The position numbers and the translations under genes are program-made. Shown here in pieces: positions 36,124-41,580 of a stretch of 49,284 nt of DNA. The notes beneath the pieces were generated by a model that was not told where the DNA came from, did not search any database, and saw only the letters and a program-made list of their open reading frames with translations. Source of the DNA: Candidatus Parcubacteria bacterium (GTDB lineage Bacteria > Patescibacteriota > Minisyncoccia > Phycocordibacterales > UBA2100); contig QZJK01000013.1 in NCBI GenBank assembly GCA_003599295.1, positions 1 to 49,284 of the forward strand, in the 5' to 3' direction. How positions within the stretch are numbered: the stretch's first letter is position 1; every line of letters starts with the position of its first letter.

Positions 36124-36314
36124 TTGATGAGGAGAAGTCCTAAAAGATCCATCGGATTTTTATATCAGAAGACTCTCGAGTCGTAATAGGTAGCCCGATT
36201 TCAGTCGAATGCCTAGGGGCCCGAGTCGGATGGAAATATTCTGCCGAGATATTTGTATTTTTTTCATCGGTACTTTTTTATCCACTTCCGATAGAAAGGT
36301 TTCCCGCGAGATTC

Positions 36315-36348
36315 GCGAAGATATCTAATAAAATATAGATATATTCGC
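36315..36348. promoter_or_regulatory. 34-bp dyad upstream of the giant-protein gene
   Basis: GCGAA-G-ATATCTA-N8-TAGATAT-A-TTCGC; overlaps TATATT (36340-36345); ends 9 nt before ATG. Confidence 0.7.
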
Positions 36349-36357
36349 TACTCCTAT

Positions 36358-39300
36358 ATGGCCTCCAACTCTACTCCAGATTCAGAAAAATATATCTCGA
36401 TTGAAGAGGCCTCTCGCTTGGCGAAAAAGCACGAAGCCTACATCCGACAGCTTTGCAGAACAGGCAAACTGGACTCGACCAGACAGGGTAAGAACTGGTA
36501 TGTGAAAAGAGAGTCTCTATCCTCCTTCCTGGCCGGACAGGAGATGCGCAAGACCGCGCGTCGCGAACAGTTGGCGGAGAAACGGCACGAGGAATACAAA
36601 GGCCTGAATAGCGGAGGTACTGCTCCGATAACGGTAGTAGAAGCAGCTCGGGAATTAGGAGTAGACGAAGCGTACGCTCGAGAGCTATGCAGGAGCGGCA
36701 AAGTGAAAGCACAACGCATAGGTGCGACGTGGTACATAAACCGCGAATCAATATCTTCTCTTCTCGTCGTGCAAAGTTATCAGCAAGCATTGCGTCGCGA
36801 AAAACTTGCGCGCGAACGTATTCAAGAGTACGCGAGAACGAATGGGCAAGTTAGTGCCGCCGGTTCGTCAGGGCGTCAGTATGTAAAGATGAGGTTTTCG
36901 GAAGCGGTATCTACTCCGCTTTCTTTTCTTTCTCTGCGCTACACAATATTTTCTATGATGCTTATTCTCATCATCGGCACATTTTTTGCAATTAAACCTC
37001 TTGAAGAACTTTCCTACGAACAAAGCTTTAACGGCCCTAGGGAATCGCAATTCGCCGCTGTCGGCGATGATGCCTCGGGTGTTTTGAATATTTTGTCTCG
37101 CTTAGCACGTTCCTGGAACGCAGCTATCGACGGAGTTTTATACGGCATTGCTTTTCCTCGACCTCTCGTGGAGAGCGGGGCGGTCGTTGCGAATATCACT
37201 GTCCCACCGAGGGTGTCGAATGATCTCGAGCCCGGACAAGAGCCAACTGCTCCAAGTAATACGAGGAGCTCAACTGTCGTCGTACATCAACCTGTCATTG
37301 AACGCATCGTCGAGCGTCAACTGCTCGCTGTGCAAGGTGGTATTACGGAAGACATTCTTAATACTCGCATTGAAGCCTTGGACACAGCGCTCTCTAACAA
37401 AATCTACTCTCTCACCTCCGCCAACACGACCGTCATCAACAACACATACGAAACACTCGGCGCCGTCGCACGAAGCGACAACTTCGACGACATCAACATC
37501 GACGACTCTGACATCACGGACTCGCGCATCTCAGGCGGCACCATATCGGGCGCGACCATCACCGGCGGCTCGGTGACCGCGACTGCTTTCAGCGGCGTTC
37601 TCGCTATCGGAAGCGGCGGCACCGGCACATCCACTGCACCGTCCTACGGCAATGTTCTTCTCGGGAACAGCGCAGGCGGCTATGACCTCGTAGCGACCTC
37701 AAGCCTCGGCATCTCCGGGGGAAGCGGCACATTCTCGTGGACCCCGACCACCTTCGGCGGAACAGCCGCCAACGCCACCTCAACACTTATCGGCTTCGAT
37801 GCCGGGCTCTACGCACTTGCATCCTCTACCATCGGCTCCGGCGCACAAGCAGGAGGTCTCACCATATCAGGCGGTGCGACGACGACGGGGAATGCGTACT
37901 TCGCGGGAAATGTGGGGATAGGCGGGATAGCCGATTCAGAATTTGCTCTCCATATCACTGGTCCTACCGCTGACAGCGCACAGCTGATGATCCAGGCTGT
38001 CTCGAATGAAGATGCCCTTATTCGTCTTCGCGAGGGAGGAACAACGAGATGGTCTATAGGGAACGACAGTACTGCGGACACGTTCTTCTTTTCTACCGGG
38101 AGTACCCTTAGGACTGACGAGAGGGTTGCCATAACTCAAGCCGGCAACTTCGGCATCGGCACTACGTCTCCGTGGGCAAAACTCTCCATCAACAACTCCA
38201 CCGCTGATACTGCGGGCCAGCCGCTCTTTGCAGTCGCGTCTTCTACAGCAACTGCAACAACAACTGCATTCATCATCACGAGTACTGGCAGAGTAGGTAT
38301 CGGCACGACCTCACCCACCCAGCTTTTGCATTTGGAAAATGGCGAAGCAATGATCGTCTCGTACGACACGGACAATTCAATAAGTTCCTCACGTCCTGCA
38401 TGGGCGTTTGGTGCCGGCGGTAATACCTTCGAAATAAATAGTGCAAGCGATTGGGGTAATTCTTTCCCGAGTTCGTGGACGAACCGTTTAACCATCGATT
38501 CCTCGGGTAACGTTGGGATTGGGACGACCACTCCAGTTGCCCCATTAACAGTCATTGGCCAAAGCACTCAAAACGGTCCATCGTTCTCGTTGCGGCAATC
38601 AGGGTCGTTCACTTACCTTGGATACGATTTCGATCTAGACACTTCTTCAGGGGGCACGGCAAATTTGAGCTTGTACGCTCGAAATACCACTGGCGACACG
38701 AGAAACGTCGGTTGGTCAGTCAATAGAGCAACAGGATTTGTGGGTATCGGGACAAGTACGGCGTATAGCAAACTCTCGGTTTGGGGCGCAGGCACTGGCA
38801 CCGGACAGGCATTCGAGATCACTAATAACGCCTCATCGACCTTGATGAAAATACTTGATAATGGTCTGGCCTACTTCCTCGGCAACGTCGGCATCGGGAC
38901 GACGACTCCCTGGGGCAAGCTCTCGATTACTAACACGAGCGGCGACTTAAGTTTTGTAGTCGAAGACGAGGCTTCACCGGACAGTTCACCATTCGTCGTC
39001 GACAACAGCGGACGGGTCGGTATGGGTACCTCGACTCCGAGCTCGTGGGCGAGTGAGGAGCTTGTTATCGCGCCCACTCCAGGCTCGAGCGATACAGTCG
39101 TCGCCCTTACCCACGGCTCGTCCATATTCCGGCTTACACTCGAGACGGACGTGAACAGCGGTTCGTTCATTATCGAAGAAAATACGTCCGATCGATTTGT
39201 ACTCGCTCCCGGAGGCAATATCGGCATAGGCTCCTCAACCCCGTGGGGCAAATTCACAGTCACTAATACTGGCAGCGACCCGTCATTTATAGTAGAAGAC

Positions 39301-41580
39301 TCGTCTTCCCCGGACGCCACACCGTTCATTATTACCGCTTCGGGAAATGTTGGCGTAGGCACGTCTTCGCCAACCAATGGGTTTACGGTGAGTGGTAATA
39401 CTACCTGGCGTGATATCGCCAATGTTGTTGGCAGCTTCCAGGCAGCTGACACGCCCTCAACTGATGCCGCACTAGCAATATCTGTAAGAGGGGGTTCTGA
39501 TGTAACGCTCACCTCGCTGCCAAAGTCGGACGGCAACGGCGGCGGTTTGGATTTAATGGTGCAAGGGTCAAGCAGTCTAACCCTCGGCACGAACGACCTG
39601 GTTCGGTTGTCGATAAGCAGTGGGGGTAATGTAGGTATTGGTACGACCACCCCATCGGCAAAGTTCTCTATCAATAACTCCACCAACGACGCTGCTCGCC
39701 AGCCGCTCTTTGCAGTGGCCTCTTCGACAGCAAACTCAACGACAACATTGTTTTCAATAAGCAATACTGGCTCGACCACAGCCGCAAACGGCATCAACAT
39801 CACCGCCGGCTGTTATGCGAGGAACGGCGAGTGCATCGGCGAGACAACCGCGCTTGCCGCTATCTATTCAACCTCAACTCCCGGCTCCAACGTTTCTGTA
39901 GTATTTACCGGAGCAGTTGACAGCTCCCCAAGTTTTTCTGTTGGCACGCTGACCCTCCCTTCAAACACTTCCTACTACACAATTGAAATTTGGAGCGGCG
40001 GTGCAGGCGGTGGCGGAGCTGACACTGGACAAGATGGCGGCGGCGGAGGTGGCGGTGGATATTCCAGCGAGGTCTTCACGGATACCACAGCAATGTTTTA
40101 TACGGTAGGTTCAGGTGGCCCTGGGAACACCGGTACCGGTACCGGCACGTCTGGTGGTCAGAGCTGTTACGGCACCAATTCAACTGCCTGTACTAGCCCC
40201 TCGCTTTCGGCAACCGGCGCTACTGGAGGAGGAGGCGGAGGCACAGGTTCGGGAGCAGCCGGTGCCGGAGGAGTTGGTTCCGGAGGGAATGTAAATATTT
40301 CCGGTAGTGCCGGTGCAGCTGAAGATGATGCAGACCCCGGCAAGGGAGGCGACTCTCCTCGTGGTGGTGCTGGCGGTACGGGAGGAACCAATACGGGCGG
40401 GATTAACGGTGTAGATGGCGTAGCACCGGGTGGTGGAGGCGGTGGCGGAGCAATTTCCGGCGGTAACGGCGGCGATGGCGCTTCGGGCGGGCTCGTCATC
40501 TATGTATACACCATTTCAGACAGTGGTGCCGACCTTGCGGAAAATTATCCGGTCACAGATGCAACTCTTTCTGCAGGCGACATCGTTGCGTTTAGCTCCG
40601 AGCAGTTTGGTGCAGTTGAACGAGCATCGGTAGATGTACCGATGCCGCTTGCCGGCGTTATCTCCACCAAGCCAGGCCTCTTGCTTAAGACTAGCGACGA
40701 AATCGGCCAGCGTCCCATTGCGCTCAAGGGCCGCGTACCGACCAAAGTAAATCTGGGGGGTGGCGATATAAGGGTAGGGGACCGCATTGCGCTCTCTTCA
40801 GTTCCCGGTATCGGCCGCAAGGCAACGATTTTTGAAGCGTCCGTAGGTATCGCACTTGAACCCTATAACGAAACTGTGGAAGAAGACCCCCTCATCGAAC
40901 TCTTCATAGACCTCGAACCGGGGATCGATATTGAAGACCTGACCGACGCGCTTCTTGAAAAACCCGTAGCTACGAGTACAGCAACGACGTCGGATGAGCA
41001 TGCGTCGAGTACACCCGTTTTCTCGACGTTCCTTTCTAAACTTTTTGGAAATCTTGTCCGATGGTTTGCGGATGCAAGTAACGGCATCGTAAACTTCTTC
41101 GCAGAGAAAATACACGCTAAAGATCTGTACACTGAGAAATTCTGTCTTGCCGATGAGGCCGGCGAGACTTGCGTCACCAAGAAGGAACTCGACGCACTCC
41201 TTGGAGCGGCGGCTATCTCGGCTGCGAGCGAGGCAGCAACGCCGAGCTCGGAGGTCAGCACGTCCATCTCTGCAGTCGAAGAGATCCAGGAACCGCCGGA
41301 AGTAAGTATCACGCCTGAAGAGTCTGTGGACGGAGCAGCATCCTCAACACCAAGCGAACCGCCTCTTGAGGAGTCGTCGGAACCTCCGCCAGCGGAAGAG
41401 CCTCTCGAAATCGTAAATGAGGCGCCACCTGAAGAAGCCCCTGTGCCTCAAGAAGAACCTGAAGTCGCAGAACCTTCTCCCGAACCTACTGCGGAACCGA
41501 CTCCGGAGCCAACTCCTGAACCAACACCGGAGCCGGTAAGCCCGCCGGAAGCAGAACCAGAAACCGAACCGGAAACGTAA
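36358..41580 (+). CDS. Giant modular protein: two MerR/excisionase-like HTH repeats, TM, GxVGIGTxxP repeats, Gly-rich block, Pro/Glu-rich tail
   Basis: 1740 aa uninterrupted ORF; modules read from the translation. Confidence 0.9.
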   Translation: MASNSTPDSEKYISIEEASRLAKKHEAYIRQLCRTGKLDSTRQGKNWYVKRESLSSFLAGQEMRKTARREQLAEKRHEEYKGLNSGGTAPITVVEAARELGVDEAYARELCRSGKVKAQRIGATWYINRESISSLLVVQSYQQALRREKLARERIQEYARTNGQVSAAGSSGRQYVKMRFSEAVSTPLSFLSLRYTIFSMMLILIIGTFFAIKPLEELSYEQSFNGPRESQFAAVGDDASGVLNILSRLARSWNAAIDGVLYGIAFPRPLVESGAVVANITVPPRVSNDLEPGQEPTAPSNTRSSTVVVHQPVIERIVERQLLAVQGGITEDILNTRIEALDTALSNKIYSLTSANTTVINNTYETLGAVARSDNFDDINIDDSDITDSRISGGTISGATITGGSVTATAFSGVLAIGSGGTGTSTAPSYGNVLLGNSAGGYDLVATSSLGISGGSGTFSWTPTTFGGTAANATSTLIGFDAGLYALASSTIGSGAQAGGLTISGGATTTGNAYFAGNVGIGGIADSEFALHITGPTADSAQLMIQAVSNEDALIRLREGGTTRWSIGNDSTADTFFFSTGSTLRTDERVAITQAGNFGIGTTSPWAKLSINNSTADTAGQPLFAVASSTATATTTAFIITSTGRVGIGTTSPTQLLHLENGEAMIVSYDTDNSISSSRPAWAFGAGGNTFEINSASDWGNSFPSSWTNRLTIDSSGNVGIGTTTPVAPLTVIGQSTQNGPSFSLRQSGSFTYLGYDFDLDTSSGGTANLSLYARNTTGDTRNVGWSVNRATGFVGIGTSTAYSKLSVWGAGTGTGQAFEITNNASSTLMKILDNGLAYFLGNVGIGTTTPWGKLSITNTSGDLSFVVEDEASPDSSPFVVDNSGRVGMGTSTPSSWASEELVIAPTPGSSDTVVALTHGSSIFRLTLETDVNSGSFIIEENTSDRFVLAPGGNIGIGSSTPWGKFTVTNTGSDPSFIVEDSSSPDATPFIITASGNVGVGTSSPTNGFTVSGNTTWRDIANVVGSFQAADTPSTDAALAISVRGGSDVTLTSLPKSDGNGGGLDLMVQGSSSLTLGTNDLVRLSISSGGNVGIGTTTPSAKFSINNSTNDAARQPLFAVASSTANSTTTLFSISNTGSTTAANGINITAGCYARNGECIGETTALAAIYSTSTPGSNVSVVFTGAVDSSPSFSVGTLTLPSNTSYYTIEIWSGGAGGGGADTGQDGGGGGGGGYSSEVFTDTTAMFYTVGSGGPGNTGTGTGTSGGQSCYGTNSTACTSPSLSATGATGGGGGGTGSGAAGAGGVGSGGNVNISGSAGAAEDDADPGKGGDSPRGGAGGTGGTNTGGINGVDGVAPGGGGGGGAISGGNGGDGASGGLVIYVYTISDSGADLAENYPVTDATLSAGDIVAFSSEQFGAVERASVDVPMPLAGVISTKPGLLLKTSDEIGQRPIALKGRVPTKVNLGGGDIRVGDRIALSSVPGIGRKATIFEASVGIALEPYNETVEEDPLIELFIDLEPGIDIEDLTDALLEKPVATSTATTSDEHASSTPVFSTFLSKLFGNLVRWFADASNGIVNFFAEKIHAKDLYTEKFCLADEAGETCVTKKELDALLGAAAISAASEAATPSSEVSTSISAVEEIQEPPEVSITPEESVDGAASSTPSEPPLEESSEPPPAEEPLEIVNEAPPEEAPVPQEEPEVAEPSPEPTAEPTPEPTPEPTPEPVSPPEAEPETEPET

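Follow-up and report, generated by a model that had tools for sequence, protein, structure and literature searches.

A giant fibre-like protein of a Kaiserbacteria-like bacterium opens with tandem winged-HTH units, and a conserved operator-like dyad precedes its gene

We found that a giant gene of a Kaiserbacteria-like member of the Patescibacteria encodes two winged helix-turn-helix (HTH) units, a single transmembrane (TM) helix, and a long fibre-like region, and that an operator-like dyad is conserved before genes of this kind in related genomes. Our preferred reading, to which we give a rough probability of 0.55, is that the protein is a membrane-tethered HTH end joined to an adhesin-like outside fibre and that it controls its own gene by binding the dyad. 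No description of the HTH-TM-fibre architecture or of the site was found in the open-access papers searched. Attachment to other cells is the presumed way of life of Patescibacteria. A cultured epibiont counts predicted adhesin surface proteins among its essential functions, and a 2024 perspective describes as "completely unknown" how cells are directed into the attached or the swarmer state (PMC11665869). A widespread protein that is adhesin-like outside and predicted to bind DNA inside, together with a candidate operator, offers a concrete and cheap test of a link between contact and expression.

The window, meaning the whole stretch of DNA that was analysed, comprises 49,284 nucleotides. 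The giant gene and its parts are as follows.
36358..41580, + strand: giant type 'B' gene for the HTH-TM-fibre protein (1740 aa from an ATG, uninterrupted by stops)
36388..36531, + strand: winged HTH unit 1, residues 11-58 (Pfam HTH_17, PHROG 6401; AlphaFold2 pLDDT about 95-98)
36628..36765, + strand: winged HTH unit 2, residues 91-136 (Pfam HTH_17 best stretch 92-133; AlphaFold2)
36946..37002, + strand: single TM helix, signal-anchor like, residues 197-215 (hydropathy 2.13; charge bias)
37015..37647, + strand: post-TM stalk, residues 220-430 (alignment; tblastn)
37795..39927, + strand: tail-fibre-like GxVGIGTxxP repeat region, residues 480-1190 (PHROG 9942, 18345, and 863)
39946..40506, + strand: glycine-rich domain, residues 1197-1383 (Pfam Gly_rich_2, 28.4 bits, cut-off 24.3)
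40516..41214, + strand: conserved C-terminal domain, residues 1387-1619 (29 of 70 family genomes have relatives)
41275..41577, + strand: Pro/Glu-rich tail (translation)

A sequence-only reading of this DNA had proposed an uninterrupted 1740-aa open reading frame with two N-terminal winged-HTH-like units, one hydrophobic segment at about residues 189-213, a repeat-rich region, a Gly-rich block, and a Pro/Glu-rich tail, and our analysis bears out this layout. The frame runs from its ATG over exactly 36358-41580, and the segment at 197-215 is the sole clear hydrophobic one in the protein (Kyte-Doolittle mean, 2.13). The repeats matched PHROG tail-fibre profiles with a best E of 2.2e-14, the glycine-rich block matched its Pfam family, and the tail is evident from the translation. 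The stalk (QPVIERIVE...GGITEDIL...) is common to other giants, with identities of up to 44% in alignments and tblastn searches. The model of the C-terminal domain reached a pLDDT of only 34.5, because its relatives are too few.

The two HTH units match DNA-binding families and folds. Pfam HTH_17 was found in two stretches of the N-terminus (E 9.5e-16; 58.2 bits against a cut-off of 27), and the excisionase profile TIGR01764 scored 37.1 bits against a cut-off of 28.8. AlphaFold2, run on residues 1-165 with 21 relatives, gave two full winged-HTH units, at residues 12-58 and 91-127, with a mean pLDDT of 91.5 and a long helix after each, such that the predicted cytoplasmic part is a body of about 190 aa and not two isolated motifs. 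Sequence searches of the PDB found nothing useful. In Foldseek searches the closest solved structure to the tandem model was the tandem winged-HTH repressor TraN of plasmid pIP501 (E 9e-4, probability 1.00), but the whole-chain rmsd of about 20 A leaves the two comparable only in unit type and tandem order, and the mutual placement of the units in the model differs from that in TraN or is uncertain. Single units superposed on mycobacteriophage Xis (rmsd 1.4) and on BldC-DNA complexes (rmsd 1.3-1.4; target-normalised TM-score 0.76-0.82 for the best chains), with the complex of DNA and the chromosome-anchoring protein RacA as a further match. The HTH residues are strongly conserved in alignments of the relatives. 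We reject a chance HTH match on the strength of the curated cut-offs, the model, and this conservation. The fold is thus supported as being of the DNA-binding excisionase/BldC/TraN type, from which we infer that the giant itself would bind DNA. For annotation of these genomes, an HTH_17 match that opens a giant frame belongs to the protein and is not a gene-calling error.

The genome spans 716 kb in 18 contigs and is 98% complete; its close relatives bear the names Candidatus Kaiserbacteria and other Parcubacteria/Paceibacterota. With residues 1-220 as the query, relatives of the HTH-TM end were recovered from 61 of the 70 family genomes, many of them opening giant frames, which reach 5980 aa. 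Typically gatB is followed by a protein A of about 300-400 aa with two HTH units, one TM helix, and a short outside tail, and A by the giant B with one or two HTH units, a TM helix, and a fibre; the majority of giants are paired with A in this conserved linkage. The genome studied here has one A-B pair, on contig C5, and a second B, the gene in the window, that stands alone. Across the phylum, giant frames in several other families begin with similar HTH units, some of these frames with a clear TM helix, and in four other Patescibacteria (G045, G262, G181, and G201) a separate small HTH-TM gene stands directly before a signal-peptide fibre gene. Because the HTH-TM and fibre parts form one protein in some genomes and neighbouring genes in others, their distribution argues that they work together.

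The neighbours of the window gene are ordinary chromosomal genes, namely uvrB, murB, a GPI-type cupin, a methyltransferase, and uvrA, together with a long minus-strand frame that we take to be a carB-like carbamoyl-phosphate synthase. The giant resembles phage tail fibres in its GxVGIGTxxP repeats and its glycine-rich domain, which match tail-fibre profiles and related ones. Unlike such fibres, the giant is TM-anchored and chromosomal, and a search of viral contigs for its relatives found none, the sole IMG/VR match (L185) being an unrelated phage region. We reject a prophage or viral origin in view of the housekeeping neighbours and the lack of relatives in viral contigs.

The preferred reading requires the HTH end of the giant to lie inside the cell and the fibre outside, the orientation that had been proposed from the sequence. 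Charge bias backs it clearly for protein A, which carries a mean of 5.7 K/R in the 30 residues on the N side of the helix versus 2.3 on the C side, with the higher net charge on the N side in 56 of 72 cases. For the giants the bias is weaker: the K/R means are 3.1 and 2.4, K/R alone near the helix are ambiguous, and net charge is higher on the N side in 27 of 38 giants and on the C side in 6. An N-in/C-out orientation is likely for the giants, as judged from charge. Neither of the two outcomes that the sequence-only reading had named as refuting it, HTH-like units outside the DNA-binding families and folds or both protein ends on one side of the membrane, was indicated by these analyses.

Upstream of the B genes there is a common block, CGAAATAnCTAGTAAAATAnTAGATAAATCG, an imperfect dyad of about 40 bp around a -10-like TAAAAT. 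Its counterpart in the window and the associated box are as follows.
36279..36286, + strand: TATCCACT, one mismatch from TATCCMCA, with the dyad core 46 nt downstream, a spacing seen in relatives
36319..36357, + strand: operator-like imperfect dyad GATATCTAATAAAATATAGATATATTCG (profile R1, 24 bits, E 1.9e-5)

The window dyad overlaps the -10-like TAAAAT at 36329-36334. An exact-pattern dyad scan of the genome gave no match because the spacing varies, and we therefore used a site profile, which was built from 36 sites and run on all 70 family genomes. The profile gave 54 matches at E<=1e-3; 52 of these are close to an HTH-TM gene start, and for most of them the distance is no more than 110 bp. 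The fairer test, confined to places outside the profile training, placed 15 of 16 just before an HTH-TM gene. One of the two exceptions sits at a contig end (G001, C9). The other (G057, L115:3121-3162) lies near gatB, 212 bp before a gene on the other strand for a 735-aa predicted secreted surface protein, which is a possible second target of the site. In the genome studied here there are exactly two matches, one per giant B gene; that in the window is the weaker of the two and a weak member of the profile, at 24 bits versus up to 49. Outside the family, a site at E 8.8e-9 directly precedes a giant B gene in G094, and a weak one occupies the equivalent place in G254. Nine of the 70 genomes lack both an HTH relative and the site, as expected if site and gene are lost together. 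The symmetry of the dyad is modest (mean, 8.6 of 13 arm matches versus 7.5 in shuffles). The idea, also raised in the sequence-only reading, that such a surface protein might autoregulate gains strong new support from this conserved operator-like site.

The distribution of the site bears on which protein would bind it. Two genomes that are 99% complete (G051 and G016) keep a B-type gene and the site without a full A protein; three others (G062, G007, and G038) have A without a clear site. The site follows B, and since G051 and G016 retain the two without full A, B itself may bind the candidate site, with A assisting. An unrelated regulator could also be the binder.

We propose the following mechanism. 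The giant would be a type II membrane protein with a cytoplasmic tandem winged-HTH N-terminus, one anchoring helix, and, on the outside, a fibre of about 1500 residues that bears adhesin-like domains. By itself or together with companion A, the HTH domain would bind the dyad that overlaps the -10 promoter region of the giant genes. As the site covers this region, binding would be expected to repress or gate transcription, and the fibre would in this way control its own expression. The outside part would be well placed to alter DNA binding once the fibre is loaded or host-bound.

The best-surviving rival, though one we regard as rather unlikely, is that the HTH end represses its own promoter only to limit dosage, keeping costly copies few in a small cell, while the outside part is a plain adhesin. 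The overlap of the site with the -10 region, the retention of B and site without A, and the sheer size of the giants all suit this explanation, and a large outside fibre need not transmit a signal. It leaves unexplained why the HTH end is tethered to the membrane and fused to the fibre, and why a companion A with its own TM helix and short outside tail is conserved. Just as tentative is the stronger form of the preferred reading, the one-polypeptide contact sensor suggested in the sequence-only reading: a host-touching giant adhesin, through its membrane-tethered tandem winged-HTH end and A, might switch transcription of its own gene and report attachment. If true, this would tell the episymbiont whether it is attached.

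It is more doubtful that some other factor binds the dyad, or that the dyad marks a special type of promoter, and that the HTH units bind protein or nothing. The HTH of RodZ, which docks to MreB, is a parallel for an HTH that binds protein. Most sites have a TATCCMCA box 43-46 nt upstream of the dyad core, and the presence of this box at other promoters too indicates that the promoter is partly general. Set against this are the near confinement of the dyad to HTH-TM genes in the 70 genomes, a fold shared with the DNA-binding proteins Xis, BldC, and TraN, and the strong conservation of the HTH residues. Least probable of all is a transertion-like tether in which the HTH end keeps the gene near the membrane for in-place synthesis and export with no regulation by signal, since its overlap with the -10 region makes the dyad a poor spot for a passive tether and protein A would be redundant, even though single units also match RacA-DNA and membrane-localised expression is proposed for another system (PMC9977878).

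Among known systems, the predicted DNA-binding domain, single TM helix, and outside part of the giant, with the N-in orientation weakly supported for B, resemble those of the ToxR/CadC-type transmembrane regulators, which are described as binding DNA through a cytoplasmic domain, crossing the membrane once to an outside part, and being active while membrane-anchored (PMC5430869, PMC11856585). In both cases a single polypeptide carries all three parts. Unlike ToxR and CadC, the giant has HTH_17/excisionase-like units in place of a ToxR-type winged helix, a giant fibre in place of a compact outside sensor, and a candidate operator at its own gene. Pfam searches found no ToxR-type (OmpR-like, Trans_reg_C) domain and gave HTH_17/excisionase-type matches and weak AbiEi matches only. 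By its predicted domains the giant would work like a transmembrane one-component regulator, and the type of its HTH units places it outside the ToxR/CadC family. TraN is reported to regulate its own promoter and to bind DNA upstream of the promoter of the tra operon (PMC10877727); the model of the giant has winged-HTH units of the same excisionase/MerR-like type in the same tandem order. TraN, however, is a soluble cytosolic monomer of a conjugative T4SS operon, whereas the giant has a TM helix, a fibre, and chromosomal housekeeping neighbours; the two are about 14% identical, and the candidate site of the giant differs from the TraN site. Giant adhesin-like surface proteins of episymbiotic Patescibacteria, very large, TM or secreted, and proposed to act in host recognition, have been reported with no HTH or operator described, and the string helix-turn-helix is absent from the main text (PMC13059738).

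Several further observations were made. We dropped the TATCCMCA box as a signature of the giant genes, as it occurs at other promoters too. At several unrelated genes (L085-L164) the box (DnaA-box-like TTATCCACA) stands roughly 45-50 nt before -10-like sequences, and it is perhaps a general promoter element of the clade. In the same set of loci a TATAnT -10-like hexamer precedes many A genes, its first base 12-14 nt from the ATG, which suggests leaderless transcripts. The C5 giant is cut by a contig end, and a 2847-aa giant on C4 has no start, also at a contig end. The two contig ends (L005 and L196) have a common stretch of 74 bp that is 94.6% identical, and the two giants may be one gene split by a repeat. 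The C4 giant was dropped as an HTH-free control, its start being lost at the contig end and the frame perhaps continuing the C5 giant. Within the stalk, the DNA at 37383-37536 matches that of the C5 giant, in the same genome, at 86.5% identity over 156 bp, yet the sequences on either side differ, a pattern suggestive of recombination or a recent exchange. At L197 (8744-9145 and 763-8790), L177, L213, and L215, a small HTH-TM gene lies immediately before a signal-peptide fibre gene or overlaps it, a split form of the giant's arrangement. In another giant (L101:8787-13001) the N-terminal HTH unit is duplicated letter for letter.
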